Assembly (NCBI GenBank): GCA_021817345.1
Contig: JAKAVC010000009.1
Span: 1 to 51,027 of the forward strand
Source: Deltaproteobacteria bacterium
Lineage (GTDB): Bacteria > Desulfobacterota > Binatia > Binatales > Binataceae
DNA: 51,027 bases
Reading direction: 5' to 3'
Part shown: one piece after another, positions 2,499 to 7,749 of the stretch
Layout of the letters: every line of letters begins with the position of its first letter
How positions within the stretch are numbered: the first letter of the stretch is position 1
Translations under genes and position numbers: made by a program
The notes under the pieces: model-generated
Seen by the model: the letters and a program-made list of their open reading frames with translations, nothing else
Database searches by the model: none
Told to the model about the DNA's origin: nothing

Positions 2499-2675
2499 AT
2501 GGACAAGGACGACGCGCTCAGGTGCTCATTTTGTGGCAGGGACGAGGATGAGGTGGCATTTCTGCTCGCGGGCGGGGCGCAAAGCGTTTACATCTGCGGC
2601 GATTGCGTGGACATGTGCGTCGACATAATCAAGCGCGAGAAATTGAGCGGGCACGTTCCGCACACCTCGCACTGA
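2499..2675 (+). CDS. small ClpX-type C4 zinc-finger protein
   Basis: This 58-aa protein consists almost only of the zinc-binding domain found at the N-terminus of ClpX. Two CxxC pairs (CSFCGR near residue 9 and CGDC near residue 33) are spaced as in ClpX, and the segment after the second pair (IIKREKL) resembles the family. The AAA+ motor is absent. A good ribosome-binding site (GGAGGGAG) lies a few bases before the ATG, which supports real translation. In ClpX this domain dimerises and binds adaptors and substrates. A free copy could act as an adaptor or decoy, but that is inference. It reads divergently from the P450 gene. Confidence 0.75.
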
Positions 2676-2845
2676 GGCGGAAAACGCGAATCGCCGAGCG
2701 CGCGCAAACCCCGTGCTCGCGCGTCGCACGCCGCCAATACTCTGGACGGATTGCTCTCCGGGCCGAGGGGGAAGTGTTGCGGCGGAGCCGAGCGGCCGCG
2801 CGCGAAGCGTGAGCCGGCTCCCGCGTCAAGCGCCGCGATACCAGA

Positions 2846-3220
2846 TCAGATCCAGCCGCCCATCGCGATTCCGGCCAGGACGGCGGCGCATCCGGCGAGC
2901 ACGCTGCCGGCCAGATTCGCAAACGCGAGCAGGAACTCGCCGTCCTGCATAAGGCGCATCGATTCGTAGGTGAACGTCGAGAAGGTCGTGTAAGCGCCGA
3001 CGAAGCCCACCGCGAACAGCAGCCGCCAGTTCGGATGGACCCACGGGCGTTCCTGCGCGAAGGCGAGAAAGAAGCCAAGGATGAAGCTGCCGGTGACGTT
3101 GATCACGAAGGTGCCCCACGGAAACACCGTGCCCCATCGCTCGGCGATGAATCCGCCGAGCAGATAACGGGCGTTGGCGCCGAGAAATCCGCCAAGTCCA
3201 ACCCACAGAAGCGACGCCAC
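2846..3220 (-). CDS. crcB: fluoride channel CrcB/Fluc
   Basis: This is a 124-aa inner-membrane fluoride channel of the Fluc family, which works as a dual-topology dimer and lets cytoplasmic fluoride leak out. The sequence has four hydrophobic segments and the diagnostic GFVGAYTTFSTFTYE stretch near residues 72-86, which includes the Phe residues lining the pore and the central Na+ site region. An Asn-bearing VINVTGSF segment is also present. The length is typical. It lies 4 bp after the DUF190/CBS gene on the same strand, and a fluoride riboswitch precedes that gene, so both genes are probably induced together by fluoride. Confidence 0.96.
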   Translation of the reverse strand: MASLLWVGLGGFLGANARYLLGGFIAERWGTVFPWGTFVINVTGSFILGFFLAFAQERPWVHPNWRLLFAVGFVGAYTTFSTFTYESMRLMQDGEFLLAFANLAGSVLAGCAAVLAGIAMGGWI

Positions 3221-3224
3221 CGTC

Positions 3225-4526
3225 CTACATTCCTCCCCTGGCCGCGCCGGCGAGCAGCGCGCGCATCATCTTGGTGCGTCCGACGATTCCGACGAGCTTC
3301 CCATCGGCGTCGACCACCGGCATCCGCTTGGTCCGCTTTTCGGCCGAGAGCGCGAGCGCGCTTGCGACAGGCATCTCCGCGCGCACCGTGACGACTTTGC
3401 GGGTCATCAGGTCCGCCGCGGTTTGGCCGTGAAGCCGCGCCAGATGTTGCCGTGCTTCCTCGCTTGTTTTTCCGAGCGGCACGCGCGCCACCAGCATCCG
3501 GATGAGCCCGGCGCGGCTTTCCGGGGCGACGCGCGAAACCAGATCGCTATCCGCGATGATCCCGACGACCCTGCGCTCGGAGTCGATCACGACCACCCGC
3601 CTGTGAGTCGAGGAAACCAGCATTTCGAACAGTTCCGCGACAGCGGTGCTTTCGCGCACAGTCGGAACGTCGCGTGACATCACGTCGGCGACGGTCGCGT
3701 GCTCGCCGACGACGGTTGTTCCCGGTTGCCATTCGGGAATGTGGACGGCTGCAATCGTGTTGAGCACATCGAGGCGGCCGAGAATTCCCACCAGCTTTCC
3801 GCTCGCGTCAACCACCGGCAATCGCTTCAGCCGCCGGGTCACCATCAGATGCGCCGCGTCGGCTAGCGAGGTGTCGGGCCGCACGGTTACGACTTCCCGG
3901 GTCATGATCTCGTTGACGCGGCGCTCGGGATTTTCGAGCGAACGATGAAGCTCGCGGACGAACTCAGCGTCGGCGGCGCGTTTAAGGCTGAGCCCGATTT
4001 GCATCCCGCCGCGAGTCAGAAGGTCGGTGTCGCTGACCATTCCGACCACCCGGCCGCCGGTGTCGACGACCGGAAGGGCAGTGAAGTCCTTGTCGAGGAG
4101 CAATTCGACGACGCGGGTCAGCGAGTCGTCGGCCCTGACGGTTACGACCTCGCGGCGCATCACCCGCTCGACCGTCACGTCGGGCAATCCGTGTCGAAAT
4201 CCGATTCCCGGCCGCGCGATTTCGACGTCCTGCAGGGTCATCAGGGCGCTGGGCGCCATCTCCACAAGCGCAGGCAGAATTTGTTCGATCCTTTCGGCGC
4301 GGTCGATTAGGGTAATTACGATGGGAAGGTCCATCGACAGGCGCAGGATGGCGGAGGTGTGGATGCGGCTGGAGGCTCCGAAGCCGGCAACACCTCGCGT
4401 TACGGTTGCGCCCGCGATACCTTCGCGGCGCAGCAATTCCACGATCGCCATGTACAGGGCCTTGTGATGATGCTGGTCGGTTTCGCCCAGGTAGATGGTG
4501 AGCTGTCTGCCCTTGCCGGTGAACAT
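3225..4526 (-). CDS. DUF190 domain protein with four CBS domains
   Basis: This 433-aa cytoplasmic protein has an N-terminal DUF190 domain (about residues 1-105, GlnB-like fold family) followed by two Bateman pairs, four CBS domains in all. The CBS repeats begin near VERVMRREVVTV, VNEIMTREVVTV, VADVMSRDVPTV and AADLMTRKVVTV, each followed by a PVVD- or VVID-type strand and a VGI/VGM loop. CBS pairs usually bind adenine nucleotides, and DUF190 proteins are often encoded beside crcB. The sequence shows no catalytic motif or membrane segment. It is the first gene after the fluoride riboswitch. A GAGGTG site precedes the ATG. A ligand-sensing role in fluoride stress or channel control is inferred. 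Confidence 0.9.
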   Translation of the reverse strand: MFTGKGRQLTIYLGETDQHHHKALYMAIVELLRREGIAGATVTRGVAGFGASSRIHTSAILRLSMDLPIVITLIDRAERIEQILPALVEMAPSALMTLQDVEIARPGIGFRHGLPDVTVERVMRREVVTVRADDSLTRVVELLLDKDFTALPVVDTGGRVVGMVSDTDLLTRGGMQIGLSLKRAADAEFVRELHRSLENPERRVNEIMTREVVTVRPDTSLADAAHLMVTRRLKRLPVVDASGKLVGILGRLDVLNTIAAVHIPEWQPGTTVVGEHATVADVMSRDVPTVRESTAVAELFEMLVSSTHRRVVVIDSERRVVGIIADSDLVSRVAPESRAGLIRMLVARVPLGKTSEEARQHLARLHGQTAADLMTRKVVTVRAEMPVASALALSAEKRTKRMPVVDADGKLVGIVGRTKMMRALLAGAARGGM

Positions 4527-4691
4527 TTCACACCTCGCGGTATCGCGATCCGCGCGTCCGATGGCGCGTGCCGCGGCGGGCCCGGCGATGCGCTCGCGAA
4601 CCTCGCGCTGGCATCGGCGAGCCTGTTACATTTGCCGGATAGTCCAGTCGGGGCGGAGTCTGGAAGGAACACTCCCGCCGATGGGAAATCC

Positions 4692-4745
4692 AGCAGGAGT
4701 CATCAGCTTCCCGACGGAAGCGGTTTCGGTGAACCCCATCACCGC
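4692..4745 (-). ncRNA. fluoride riboswitch (crcB motif)
   Basis: Read on the minus strand, the segment contains GGTGATGGGGTTCACC, a short linker AAACCGCTTCC, and then GGAAGCTGATGACTCCT. These match the fluoride riboswitch consensus: the 5' GG-N-GATGG-N-GTTC-N-CC helix, the second hairpin, and the near-invariant TGATGACTCCT 3' strand that closes the pseudoknot around the Mg-bound fluoride ion. The GATGACTCCT strand is at 4695-4704. About 165 nt of leader separates it from the start codon of the DUF190/CBS gene. I did not recognise a clear terminator or a sequestered ribosome-binding site, so the mode of switching is undecided. Confidence 0.9.
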
Positions 4746-4749
4746 GTAG

Positions 4750-4784
4750 ATTCTATAGATGGAGCAGGCCGTGATTGCAGTCAA
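4750..4784 (-). promoter_or_regulatory. candidate promoter of the fluoride operon
   Basis: On the minus strand TTGACT (4779-4784) is followed by TATAGA (4752-4757) or the overlapping TAGAAT (4750-4755), just upstream of the riboswitch. The -10-like hexamers are good, but the spacing (21-23 bp) is longer than ideal, so only the general position is supported. Confidence 0.35.
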
Positions 4785-4906
4785 GCACCCGCTCGAACGT
4801 CCAGGCGGTTGAGCGGGAGGCGGACCGCAAAGCAAGCCGATGCGGCCCATTATCGCGTCGGCGGGCCGGGCTGGGAGTGCGGAGAATCATAACGCAGGAG
4901 AATCAC

Positions 4907-5173
4907 ATGAAGGGACTTGCAGTTGCGGTTTTGGTTCTGGGCCTGATCGTACTGGCCGGTGCGGCGGCGGCGTTGTTCATGATCTTGAGTCCGTCGGTGA
5001 CGGTGATGCCCACGACGATTCTGACCGGAGTGGTCGAAGGAATCATTCTGCTCGCGCTGTGCAATTTGGGTCTCGCGACCGTGGTCATCGCGCGATGCCG
5101 CGAGCCGAAGGCGACGGCCCATCAGGCGCCTTCGGCGCCTCCCGCCGGGCCGCCGGAATTCCGGGCTCAGTAG
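4907..5173 (+). CDS. small membrane protein, unknown function
   Basis: This 88-aa protein has two predicted membrane segments: a Leu/Val/Ala-rich stretch near residues 3-28 and a second near residues 40-63. They are followed by a short cytoplasmic-type tail rich in Pro and Ala. The ATG at 4907 was chosen because GCAGGAG lies six bases before it; an in-frame ATG 44 codons upstream has no such site. It is divergent from the fluoride operon and shares the intergenic region with it. I recognise no family. Its third codon positions are GC-rich, like the neighbouring genes. Confidence 0.65.
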   Translation: MKGLAVAVLVLGLIVLAGAAAALFMILSPSVTVMPTTILTGVVEGIILLALCNLGLATVVIARCREPKATAHQAPSAPPAGPPEFRAQ

Positions 5174-5178
5174 CCCGG
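5161..5178 (+). terminator. hairpin at the end of the small membrane-protein gene
   Basis: CCGGGCT-CAGT-AGCCCGG forms a perfect 7-bp stem spanning the stop codon of the upstream small gene. A short T-rich stretch (ATTTTG) follows a few bases later. It could act as a weak intrinsic terminator. Confidence 0.4.
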
Positions 5179-5182
5179 ACGG

Positions 5183-5254
5183 TCAAGATTTTGCCTGAGG
5201 GGACTCGAACTCGCGCATCGCGGCCAGGAAGAAGTTGCGCGCGATAAACGAGCG
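5183..5254 (-). pseudogene. possible C-terminal remnant of a protein-coding gene
   Basis: On the minus strand, a frame ending in TGA at 5183-5185 reads RSFIARNFFLAAMREFE and then SPQAKS. Nearly every codon in this stretch ends in G or C, as in the real genes of the window, and the composition looks protein-like. The frame can be followed upstream to an ATG near 5358 (58 codons in all), but the upstream part is Arg/Ala-rich and unconvincing. It may be a decayed gene end or chance. I recognise nothing else in the 5186-5437 stretch. Confidence 0.25.
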
Positions 5255-5437
5255 CCCGCCCGCGGCCTCGCTTTGCCGCGCCGGAAACCCCGCGGCTGCT
5301 CGCCGACCGCCTTCCGGCTTAGCGATGGATAAACGTCGCGCACGACGAGCGGCGCGCATCCCGCAAATCGGTTTGCGCGCGGACGAGAATGCGGCCCTGT
5401 CGCATTACGGCCGGGTTTGCGCGGGCGGCGGCGCGCT

Positions 5438-5465
5438 TTGCCCCGATGTAACATGGGGATATCCT
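5438..5465 (+). promoter_or_regulatory. candidate glgB promoter
   Basis: TTGCCC (5438-5443), a 16-bp spacer and TATCCT (5460-5465) resemble a housekeeping promoter about 50 bp before glgB. A GC-rich hairpin (cgccgcg/cgcggcg, 5474-5489) with a TTTT tail would sit at the very 5' end of the transcript. Confidence 0.4.
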
Positions 5466-5514
5466 CTTTCGGACGCCGCGCCCGCGGCGCTTTTCCATCG
5501 CAGGGAATGAAGGC

Positions 5515-7749
5515 ATGAAGGAAACGGTTCGAATGCATAATGACGACACTGGAACGCGGGAACCGTGGCGGGCGCCGAATGCCGAAATCGAGCGGCTGCT
5601 CGCCCTGGAGCATCCCGACCCGCACTCGCTCCTCGGCATCCATCCGACGCCCGACGGGGTGGTGGTTCGCGCGTATCGGCCCGACGCCGAGCAAGTCGTT
5701 CTGATTGTCGAGGATAAGATTCGCCTGCCGATGGAGCGGCGGCATGATGACGGATTTTTCGAAATCCTGGTCCGGGAGCGGCGCGAGGTCTTTAAATATC
5801 TCCTGGAGGTCCATTACCCGCGCGGCGAGACCTTCACTATCGTCGATCCGTACCGCTTCCTTCCCACGGTCGGAGAACTCGACCTTCATCTATGGGCCGA
5901 GAGCAAGCACGAGCGCGTTTACGACAAGCTCGGCGCCCACCTGCGCGAGATCGACGGGATTCGCGGCGTATCGTTCGCGGTATGGGCGCCGAACGCGCGC
6001 AGCGTCAGCGTAATCGGCGATTTCAACGGGTGGGACGGCAGGCTTCACCTGATGCGAGTGTTGGGAAGCTCGGGCGTATGGGAGCTGTTCGTGCCCGACG
6101 CCGGTGCGGGCTCCAAGTACAAATACGAGATTCGCACTGGCGACGGCGGACTGCTGCTCAAAGCCGACCCGTTCGCGACGCTGATGGAGACGCCGCCGGC
6201 AACCGCGTCCGTCGTGTTCCAGTCTTCCTACCGGTTCAACGACCAGGAATGGATGGACGGGCGCCCGGGGCGCGAGGCGATCAAAAGCCCGATGTCGATC
6301 TATGAGGTGCATCTCGGCTCATGGCGCCGCGTGCCCGAGCAGGGACATCGCTCGCTCACCTACCGTGAGCTCGCCGAACAGCTGGGCGATTACGTCTCGG
6401 ACATGGGATTTACCCACGTCGAGCTGCTGCCCGTGATGGAGCATCCGTTCGCCGGCTCGTGGGGCTACCAGGTGAGCGGATATTTCGCGCCGACCTCGCG
6501 CTTTGGAACGCCCGACGACTTCCGCTTCTTCGTTGACGAGATGCATCGGCGCAATATCGGCGTGATTCTCGACTGGGTGCCGGCGCACTTTCCGCGCGAC
6601 GCGTTCAGCCTGGGGCGATTCGACGGCACCGCGCTCTACGAGCATCTCGATCCCCGTCTCGGTTATCATCCGGAATGGGACACGTACATTTTCAACTACG
6701 GCCGCAACGAGGTCAGGAGCTTCCTCATCGCGAGCGCGCTCTACTGGCTCGGCGAGTTCCATGCCGACGGGCTTCGTGTCGATGCGGTTGCGTCGATGAT
6801 TTACCTGGATTACGGGCGGCGCGACGGCGAATGGGTGCCGAACCCGTACGGTGGAAAGGAGAACCTCGACGCGATCTCGTTTCTGCGCGCGATGAACGAG
6901 CGGGCCTACGCGCTTAACCCGGGCATCGTGATGGTGGCCGAGGAATCGACCGCGTGGACCGGCGTCAGCCGGCCGACCTACGCGGGAGGGCTTGGCTTCG
7001 GGCTCAAGTGGGATATGGGCTGGATGCACGACACACTCGAGTATTTCTCGCTCGACCCCGTCTATCGCCGCCATCATCATCGCGATCTTACCTTCGGGAT
7101 GCTTTACGCGTGGAGCGAGAACTTCGTGCTTCCGCTTTCCCATGACGAGGTGGTGCATGGAAAGCGCTCGATGCTCTCGAAGATGCCGGGGGACCGATGG
7201 CAGCAGTTCGCGAACCTGCGCGCCCTTTACGCATACATGTGGGCGCGATGCGGCAAGAAGCTGCTCTTCATGGGCAGCGAGTTCGGCCAATGGCGCGAAT
7301 GGAACCACGACGAGAGCCTTGACTGGAACCTGCTCGACTACGACGAGCATCGCGGACTGCAGCGCCTGGTGCGCGATTTGAACTGGCATTACCGGGTCGA
7401 GCCGGCGCTATGGGAGGCCGATGTCGAGCCCTCGGGCTTCCAATGGATCGCGCCGGATAACGCCGACGACAACGTGATCGTCTTCATGAGAATCGCGCCG
7501 TCGAGCGGCCAGAAGCTCATCTGCGTGTGCAACTTTTCGCCCGTGATGCGCGCGCCGTACCGGGTCGGCGTGCCGGAACCGGGCTTCTATCGCGAGATTC
7601 TCAACACCGACTCCGCGTACTACGGCGGCACGAACGCGGGAAACGCGGGCGGCGTCGAGGCGCGGAAGATCGAGTGGTTCGGTTTTTCGCACTCAATCGC
7701 GATCACTCTGCCGCCGCTTGCCGTGGTTTGGTTCCGCGCACCCTCCTAG
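5515..7749 (+). CDS. glgB: 1,4-alpha-glucan (glycogen) branching enzyme
   Basis: This 744-aa GH13 enzyme cuts alpha-1,4 glucan chains and rejoins them as alpha-1,6 branches in cytoplasmic glycogen synthesis. It has an N-terminal N1 module, a CBM48 module (AVWAPNARSVSVIGDFNGWDG, about residues 155-175), the catalytic barrel with DGLRVDAVASMIYLDYGR (nucleophile Asp), the acid/base Glu in VMVAEESTAW, and LPLSHDEVVHGK, then the C-terminal all-beta domain. The length is typical of the long E. coli-like form. An in-frame ATG six codons inside (5533) is an alternative start. No other glycogen gene is adjacent. Confidence 0.97.
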   Translation: MKETVRMHNDDTGTREPWRAPNAEIERLLALEHPDPHSLLGIHPTPDGVVVRAYRPDAEQVVLIVEDKIRLPMERRHDDGFFEILVRERREVFKYLLEVHYPRGETFTIVDPYRFLPTVGELDLHLWAESKHERVYDKLGAHLREIDGIRGVSFAVWAPNARSVSVIGDFNGWDGRLHLMRVLGSSGVWELFVPDAGAGSKYKYEIRTGDGGLLLKADPFATLMETPPATASVVFQSSYRFNDQEWMDGRPGREAIKSPMSIYEVHLGSWRRVPEQGHRSLTYRELAEQLGDYVSDMGFTHVELLPVMEHPFAGSWGYQVSGYFAPTSRFGTPDDFRFFVDEMHRRNIGVILDWVPAHFPRDAFSLGRFDGTALYEHLDPRLGYHPEWDTYIFNYGRNEVRSFLIASALYWLGEFHADGLRVDAVASMIYLDYGRRDGEWVPNPYGGKENLDAISFLRAMNERAYALNPGIVMVAEESTAWTGVSRPTYAGGLGFGLKWDMGWMHDTLEYFSLDPVYRRHHHRDLTFGMLYAWSENFVLPLSHDEVVHGKRSMLSKMPGDRWQQFANLRALYAYMWARCGKKLLFMGSEFGQWREWNHDESLDWNLLDYDEHRGLQRLVRDLNWHYRVEPALWEADVEPSGFQWIAPDNADDNVIVFMRIAPSSGQKLICVCNFSPVMRAPYRVGVPEPGFYREILNTDSAYYGGTNAGNAGGVEARKIEWFGFSHSIAITLPPLAVVWFRAPS

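Follow-up and report, generated by a model that had tools for sequence, protein, structure and literature searches.

Fluoride riboswitches that act on transcription have been described in Bacillus cereus and Thermotoga petrophila, where a downstream hairpin uses the pseudoknot strand of the aptamer as its 5' arm. According to the passages available of three papers, the terminator hairpin takes this strand when no ligand is bound (PMC13273304, PMC11077080, PMC8752731), and the covarying helices named in those of PMC13273304 are P1, the pseudoknot and P3. The aptamer also contains a reversed Watson-Crick pair, A6-U38, and a reversed Hoogsteen pair, A40-U48; the roles of the long-range pairs are treated in parts of PMC11586693, PMC10687018 and PMC8004769. 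The genes known under such control include antiporters, pyrophosphatase, enolase and formate hydrogenlyase, and Streptomyces cattleya and Methylobacterium DM4 make extensive use of fluoride riboswitches (PMC11139923, in the passages available).

Here, we analysed a stretch of 51,027 nucleotides (the window) from an uncultured lineage, together with genomes of its class. The aptamer in the window shows no essential difference from the fluoride riboswitch class (RF01734), with which it shares the full-length model match, P1, the pseudoknot and P3, the residues of both long-range pairs and a crcB gene in the operon; the first gene of that operon is DUF190-CBS. Like the switches of B. cereus and T. 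petrophila, it is followed by a hairpin with the pseudoknot strand as 5' arm. Unlike them, it has a weak U-tract, and its relatives add a competing helix between the 3' arm of the hairpin and a later segment.

Fluoride aptamer and operon

A cmscan search of both strands of the window with 4227 Rfam families gave a single match above the gathering score, the RF01734 aptamer on the minus strand (57.2 bits, E 2.5e-13, gathering score 34), whose alignment spans model positions 1-64 of 64 and is untruncated at either end (Table 1). The earlier note had read the minus-strand leader as a fit to the fluoride riboswitch consensus and had proposed this Infernal search as a check; that reading is borne out, and the span given there, 4692-4745, is the aptamer core minus both ends. 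The element is also the sole RF01734 match found at E 0.001 in the whole assembly (3.54 Mb). The pairs of P1, the pseudoknot and P3 are intact (4/4 counted in each), and the residues for both A6-U38 and A40-U48 are present, as read from the sequence and typed by position. The strand TGATGACTCCT, previously called invariant, is indeed there; its invariance does not hold, as TGATG stands at positions 38-42 in 42 of the 89 distinct typed aptamers of the class. As far as sequence can tell, the element is confirmed as a genuine, ordinary and well-supported fluoride riboswitch, which would be expected to bind fluoride.

The proposal that this riboswitch stands ahead of a crcB operon is likewise upheld by the PF02537 and TIGR00494 matches of the second gene, the latter of which assigns CrcB to a fluoride exporter family. 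The start of crcB lies 4 nt beyond the stop of the DUF190-CBS gene. The N-terminal DUF190 region of the 433-aa protein matches the solved structures of PH1503 (2dcl) and TM0021 (1o51), whose fold we take to be PII-like; unlike those proteins, it continues into four CBS domains and is encoded downstream of a fluoride riboswitch. A P450 gene further downstream was considered as a third member and rejected because it is 541 nt away from crcB and an oppositely oriented ClpX-type zinc-finger ORF lies in the gap. The operon is therefore limited to two genes, DUF190-CBS and crcB. The terminator scan placed no minus-strand terminator-like site in the crcB-P450 gap, so transcription could read through into the P450 gene. 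The promoter scan, which covered 2600 to 5600, gave no sigma-70-like promoter. That fluoride would induce the operon can be soundly expected from this arrangement of aptamer and genes. At the contig edge, an IS256-type transposase is encoded at 17-958 of the plus strand.

Table 1. Features of the riboswitch locus in the window, with example variant aptamers from relatives
Feature	Position	Strand	Remarks
Fluoride riboswitch aptamer (RF01734; crcB motif)	4687-4752	-	cmscan 57.2 bits; cut-off 34
Aptamer P1	4743-4740 with 4731-4728	-	pairs counted in window sequence
Aptamer pseudoknot	4737-4734 with 4699-4696	-	pairs counted in window sequence
Aptamer P3	4721-4716 with 4711-4706	-	pairs counted in window sequence
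Residues A6, U38, A40, U48	4739, 4705, 4703, 4695	-	T. petrophila numbering
Candidate OFF hairpin	arms 4700-4690 and 4681-4671	-	11 bp, loop of 8, -16.4 kcal/mol
Weak U-tract GUUCCUUCC	4662-4670	-	4 U of 9; directly after OFF hairpin; compared with other leaders
Possible competing helix, GGCGGGAGU with GACUCCGCC	4679-4671 with 4660-4652	-	would free the pseudoknot strand
Likely Shine-Dalgarno GAGG	4533-4536	-	ahead of ATG 4526; read by eye, unscored
DUF190 + four CBS domains, first operon gene	3225-4526	-	433 aa; PF02641 126.3 bits; PF00571 190 bits, 4 stretches
crcB fluoride channel gene	2846-3220	-	124 aa, GTG start; PF02537 109 bits (cut-off 32.9); TIGR00494 102.2 bits (cut-off 80.45)
58-aa ORF, lone ClpX-type C4 zinc finger (PF06689)	2499-2675	+	between crcB and P450, opposite strand
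P450 gene	1081-2304	-	541 nt beyond crcB
Example G6-C38 aptamer, L036	4929-4998	-	relative
Example G6-C38 aptamer, L031	12359-12428	-	relative
Example G6-C38 aptamer, L039	14260-14321	+	relative
Example G6-C38 aptamer, L045	3518-3595	-	relative; others exist

Expression platform

The earlier note had found no clear expression platform and a spacer of about 165 nt, longer than usual. The measured distance from aptamer to start codon is 160 nt, which is normal for the lineage, since it ranges from 123 to 211 nt across 16 orthologous leaders (window included). A candidate platform is present as well: the pseudoknot strand ACUCC (4700-4696) also begins the 5' arm of a hairpin of 11 bp. An equally good pseudoknot-strand hairpin arose in 44 of 5000 dinucleotide shuffles of the 32 nt that follow downstream (1 of 200 in a smaller run), and 8 of the 11 pairs are retained in the register of the relatives. 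The doubt over the platform is thus answered in part, with modest support from the relatives. Because the tract GUUCCUUCC behind the hairpin is U-poor and the terminator scan of the window showed no excess (3 sites, 2.1 expected), the shared-strand topology is what we take as established, and termination at this point is inferred. In predicted energies of the growing RNA, with the energy of the pseudoknot left out, the OFF hairpin is favoured by 2.8-9.9 kcal/mol for 3' ends between 4671 and 4641, and a fold that spares the pseudoknot is favoured from 4635 on. The complete leader is not unusually structured (15/200 shuffles fold as well).

The leaders were aligned for 15 of the 16 orthologues, window included, with G018 omitted for an insert of about 65 nt. 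In this alignment 78.3% of the cells of the OFF helix are paired against at most 52.5% when it is slid, and 80.6% against at most 65.8% for the competing helix (hairpin 3' arm with a later segment), a comparison biased in favour of both helices because they were drawn on G047. Column shuffles did as well as the OFF helix in 22/500 cases for cells paired, 25/500 for the covariation score, 14/500 for cells changed on both sides, 279/500 for pairs changed on both sides and 145/500 for pair types. For the competing helix the figure was 1/500 for cells paired and for covariation, and 199/500 and 216/500 for the two counting measures; in the window alone this helix is no better than chance (551/5000 shuffles fold as well). 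A further, U-tailed hairpin of segments 3 and 4 was rejected as a general feature, as at least 6 of its 8 pairs occur in 7 of the 15 leaders as aligned and 1 of 8 in the window. Taken together, the leaders of the relatives suggest a chain of mutually exclusive hairpins resembling an attenuator. A good U-tract directly after the OFF hairpin is frequent in orthologous leaders of the same family, for example CUUUUCUUG in G047 and CUUUUUUUU in G018.

Not every copy of this operon carries the riboswitch: in three relatives (G044, G048 and, for a second copy on contig 253, G047), the region upstream of the DUF190-CBS/crcB pair has no RF01734 match. Upstream of position 1839 in locus L130, G044 retains platform-like later segments, again with no RF01734 match, and it seems to have lost its aptamer. 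One leader copy before DUF190-CBS (G027:C61:144498) scores 22.2 bits and has lost two of four pseudoknot pairs.

Proposed mechanism of regulation

We hypothesize that the element is a fluoride riboswitch of the canonical kind that works as a transcriptional ON switch for the DUF190-CBS/crcB operon, and give this reading a probability of about 0.7. Without fluoride, the 11-bp hairpin ending at 4671 would capture the pseudoknot strand and the polymerase would terminate or stall at the hairpin end. With fluoride, the aptamer bound to magnesium and fluoride would retain its pseudoknot strand, the RNA further downstream would fold so as to spare it, and the polymerase would read through to the fluoride channel gene. 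The score of the aptamer, the strand-sharing hairpin, the published strand exchange, the pairing in the relatives, the fold energies and the membership of CrcB in an exporter family all support this reading. On the other hand, it is weakened by the poor U-tract, the modest column shuffles, the lack of a terminator excess, the absence of a sigma-70-like promoter in the stretch scanned and the ordinary structure of the leader, as well as by the chance-level competing helix in the window and the three operons of relatives that have no RF01734 match.

The weak U-tract bears on two other readings. Together with the 160-nt spacer it would leave room for Rho, so that the hairpin would slow the polymerase, Rho would end the transcript further down the leader and fluoride would prevent this via the pseudoknot; we consider such a Rho-dependent shut-off unlikely, as the orthologous leaders of the same family often carry a good U-tract right behind the hairpin (G047, G018). 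The same tract, the second terminator that is absent from the window and the case of G044 could also mean that the aptamer is intact while its platform is decaying and regulation is lost. This is hardly probable for an aptamer in which all pairs of P1, the pseudoknot and P3 are intact at full score, unlike the degraded G027 copy. Control of translation, in which the ribosome site near 4536-4533 would be sequestered without fluoride, is also very improbable: in its favour, the minimum-energy fold of the whole leader pairs the region of this site with the 5' side of the aptamer, and the class includes another family with aptamers about 15 nt from the start codon; against it, about 150 nt separate the site and the aptamer here, 15 of 200 shuffles match the whole-leader fold, and a closer partner for the pseudoknot strand is available. 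The transcriptional ON switch remains the preferred reading.

Fluoride aptamers in the class

RF01734 was matched in 44 of 148 genomes of the same class, that of the window included, at E <=0.001 (42 over the cut-off), with 98 matches in all. Within the same family, at E 0.001 and with some matches below the gathering score, G056 has 11, G027 has 8 and G038, G042 and G047 have 6 each. Loci L031-L038 (G027, G056, G042, G047, G038 and G049) are dense aptamer islands, with 4-11 matches per genome and genes for fluoride-sensitive enzymes. G027 and G038 belong to different genera and share near-identical stretches, owing to either contamination of the bins or recent transfer, and should not be treated as independent. 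The genes adjoining the aptamers of relatives encode dihydroxy-acid dehydratase, complex-I or hydrogenase-4-like subunits, an Na/H exchanger, pyrophosphatase, enolase, SAM synthetase and MutS-domain, dynamin-like, AAA and metallophosphatase proteins. In view of S. cattleya and Methylobacterium DM4, a dense fluoride regulon is not in itself a novelty. A fluorinase was sought because the SAM synthetase gene adjoins fluoride aptamers, and this candidate was rejected: the intervening gene in G038 encodes a YkoP-domain protein, its counterpart in G056 being compared by eye only.

With duplicates counted, the class has 95 typed hits. At least 4 of 6 positions of the pseudoknot strand pair with downstream sequence in 56/60 hits with A-U at positions 6 and 38, in 30/34 with G-C and in the single one with A-C. 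The pairing is matched by at most 10 of 200 shuffles in 37/60 A-U and 28/34 G-C hits, and a tail with at least 5 U of 9 stands behind it in 33/60 and 15/34, respectively. Several aptamers of another family lie 15 nt before the start codon and look translational.

The search for DUF190 gave 75 places in 143 class genomes, 64 of them within 2.5 kb of a crcB match. A riboswitch hit lies at most 2.5 kb upstream of 18 of the 26 places in open frames of at least 400 aa, and of 5 of the 49 in shorter frames. Because most DUF190 places of the class adjoin crcB, DUF190 may be a regulator or partner of the fluoride channel.

Variant aptamers at the 6-38 pair

For typing, three of the 98 hits were dropped by hand as doubtful (G127:C55, G134:C20 and G108:C52, 22.9-26.2 bits), and the low-scoring G027:C61:144498 was kept because of its position before DUF190-CBS; this left 95 typed hits, 89 of them distinct. 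At positions 6 and 38, 59 of the 89 have A-U, the window among them, 29 have G-C, one has A-C and none has G-U. An A at position 39 accompanies 24 of the 29 G-C types and 1 of the 59 A-U types. The 15-48 pair of tRNA is a familiar example of a reversed Watson-Crick pair at which A-U and G-C replace one another.

The G-C type occurs in two families, that of the window (f1) and f5. In f1, the A-U type is found in each of the 16 leaders that precede DUF190-CBS/crcB, and the G-C types precede genes for pyrophosphatase, enolase, YkoP/SAM synthetase and dynamin-like, AAA and metallophosphatase proteins, not crcB. Two cases argue against a strict division of the subtypes by gene: the only G-C aptamer of f5 (G069) has a DUF190-CBS gene behind it, and an A-U aptamer of f16 (G132 contig 59) is followed by an enolase-like start, as judged by eye. 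The A-C case (G056) precedes the same kinds of gene as a G-C case in G027/G038, again by eye, and is like an intermediate.

A pattern scan, restricted to one stem type and open to all four 6-38 combinations, was run on 395 genomes drawn from the phylum and gave 33 places: 30 A-U, 1 A-C and 2 G-C. One of the two G-C places is in f1; the other, in another family (G362), was rejected as a variant aptamer since it has no RF01734 match. Among 349 genomes from the phylum of a Burkholderiales record there were 2 pattern places, one A-U and one A-C (G791, a pattern match only). On these counts the G-C type looks concentrated in the class of the window, and many of its copies may be explained by common descent. 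The change from A6-U38 to G-C is unmentioned in the literature searched, to which the primary structure and discovery papers did not belong, and may be in print; the passages available of PMC13273304 carry no report of 6-38 covariation.

It is conceivable, if rather doubtful, that in the family of the window A6-U38 aptamers serve export, ion-transport and hydrogenase-like operons and G6-C38 aptamers, usually with G39 changed to A, serve genes that encode fluoride-sensitive enzymes and stress proteins. Differences between the subtypes in affinity, kinetics or metal preference would then underlie a two-tier fluoride response.

Significance

The window adds one well-supported fluoride riboswitch, together with a candidate off-switch hairpin, from an uncultured lineage. 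Its relatives are of more consequence, with their dense groups of aptamers and their variants. They provide a test, by natural covariation, of the tertiary A6-U38 pair next to the magnesium-fluoride site, and canonical and variant aptamers within one genome make an in vitro comparison possible. Moreover, the DUF190 protein, encoded next to crcB in most places of the class where it was found, may be a testable partner for the fluoride channel.
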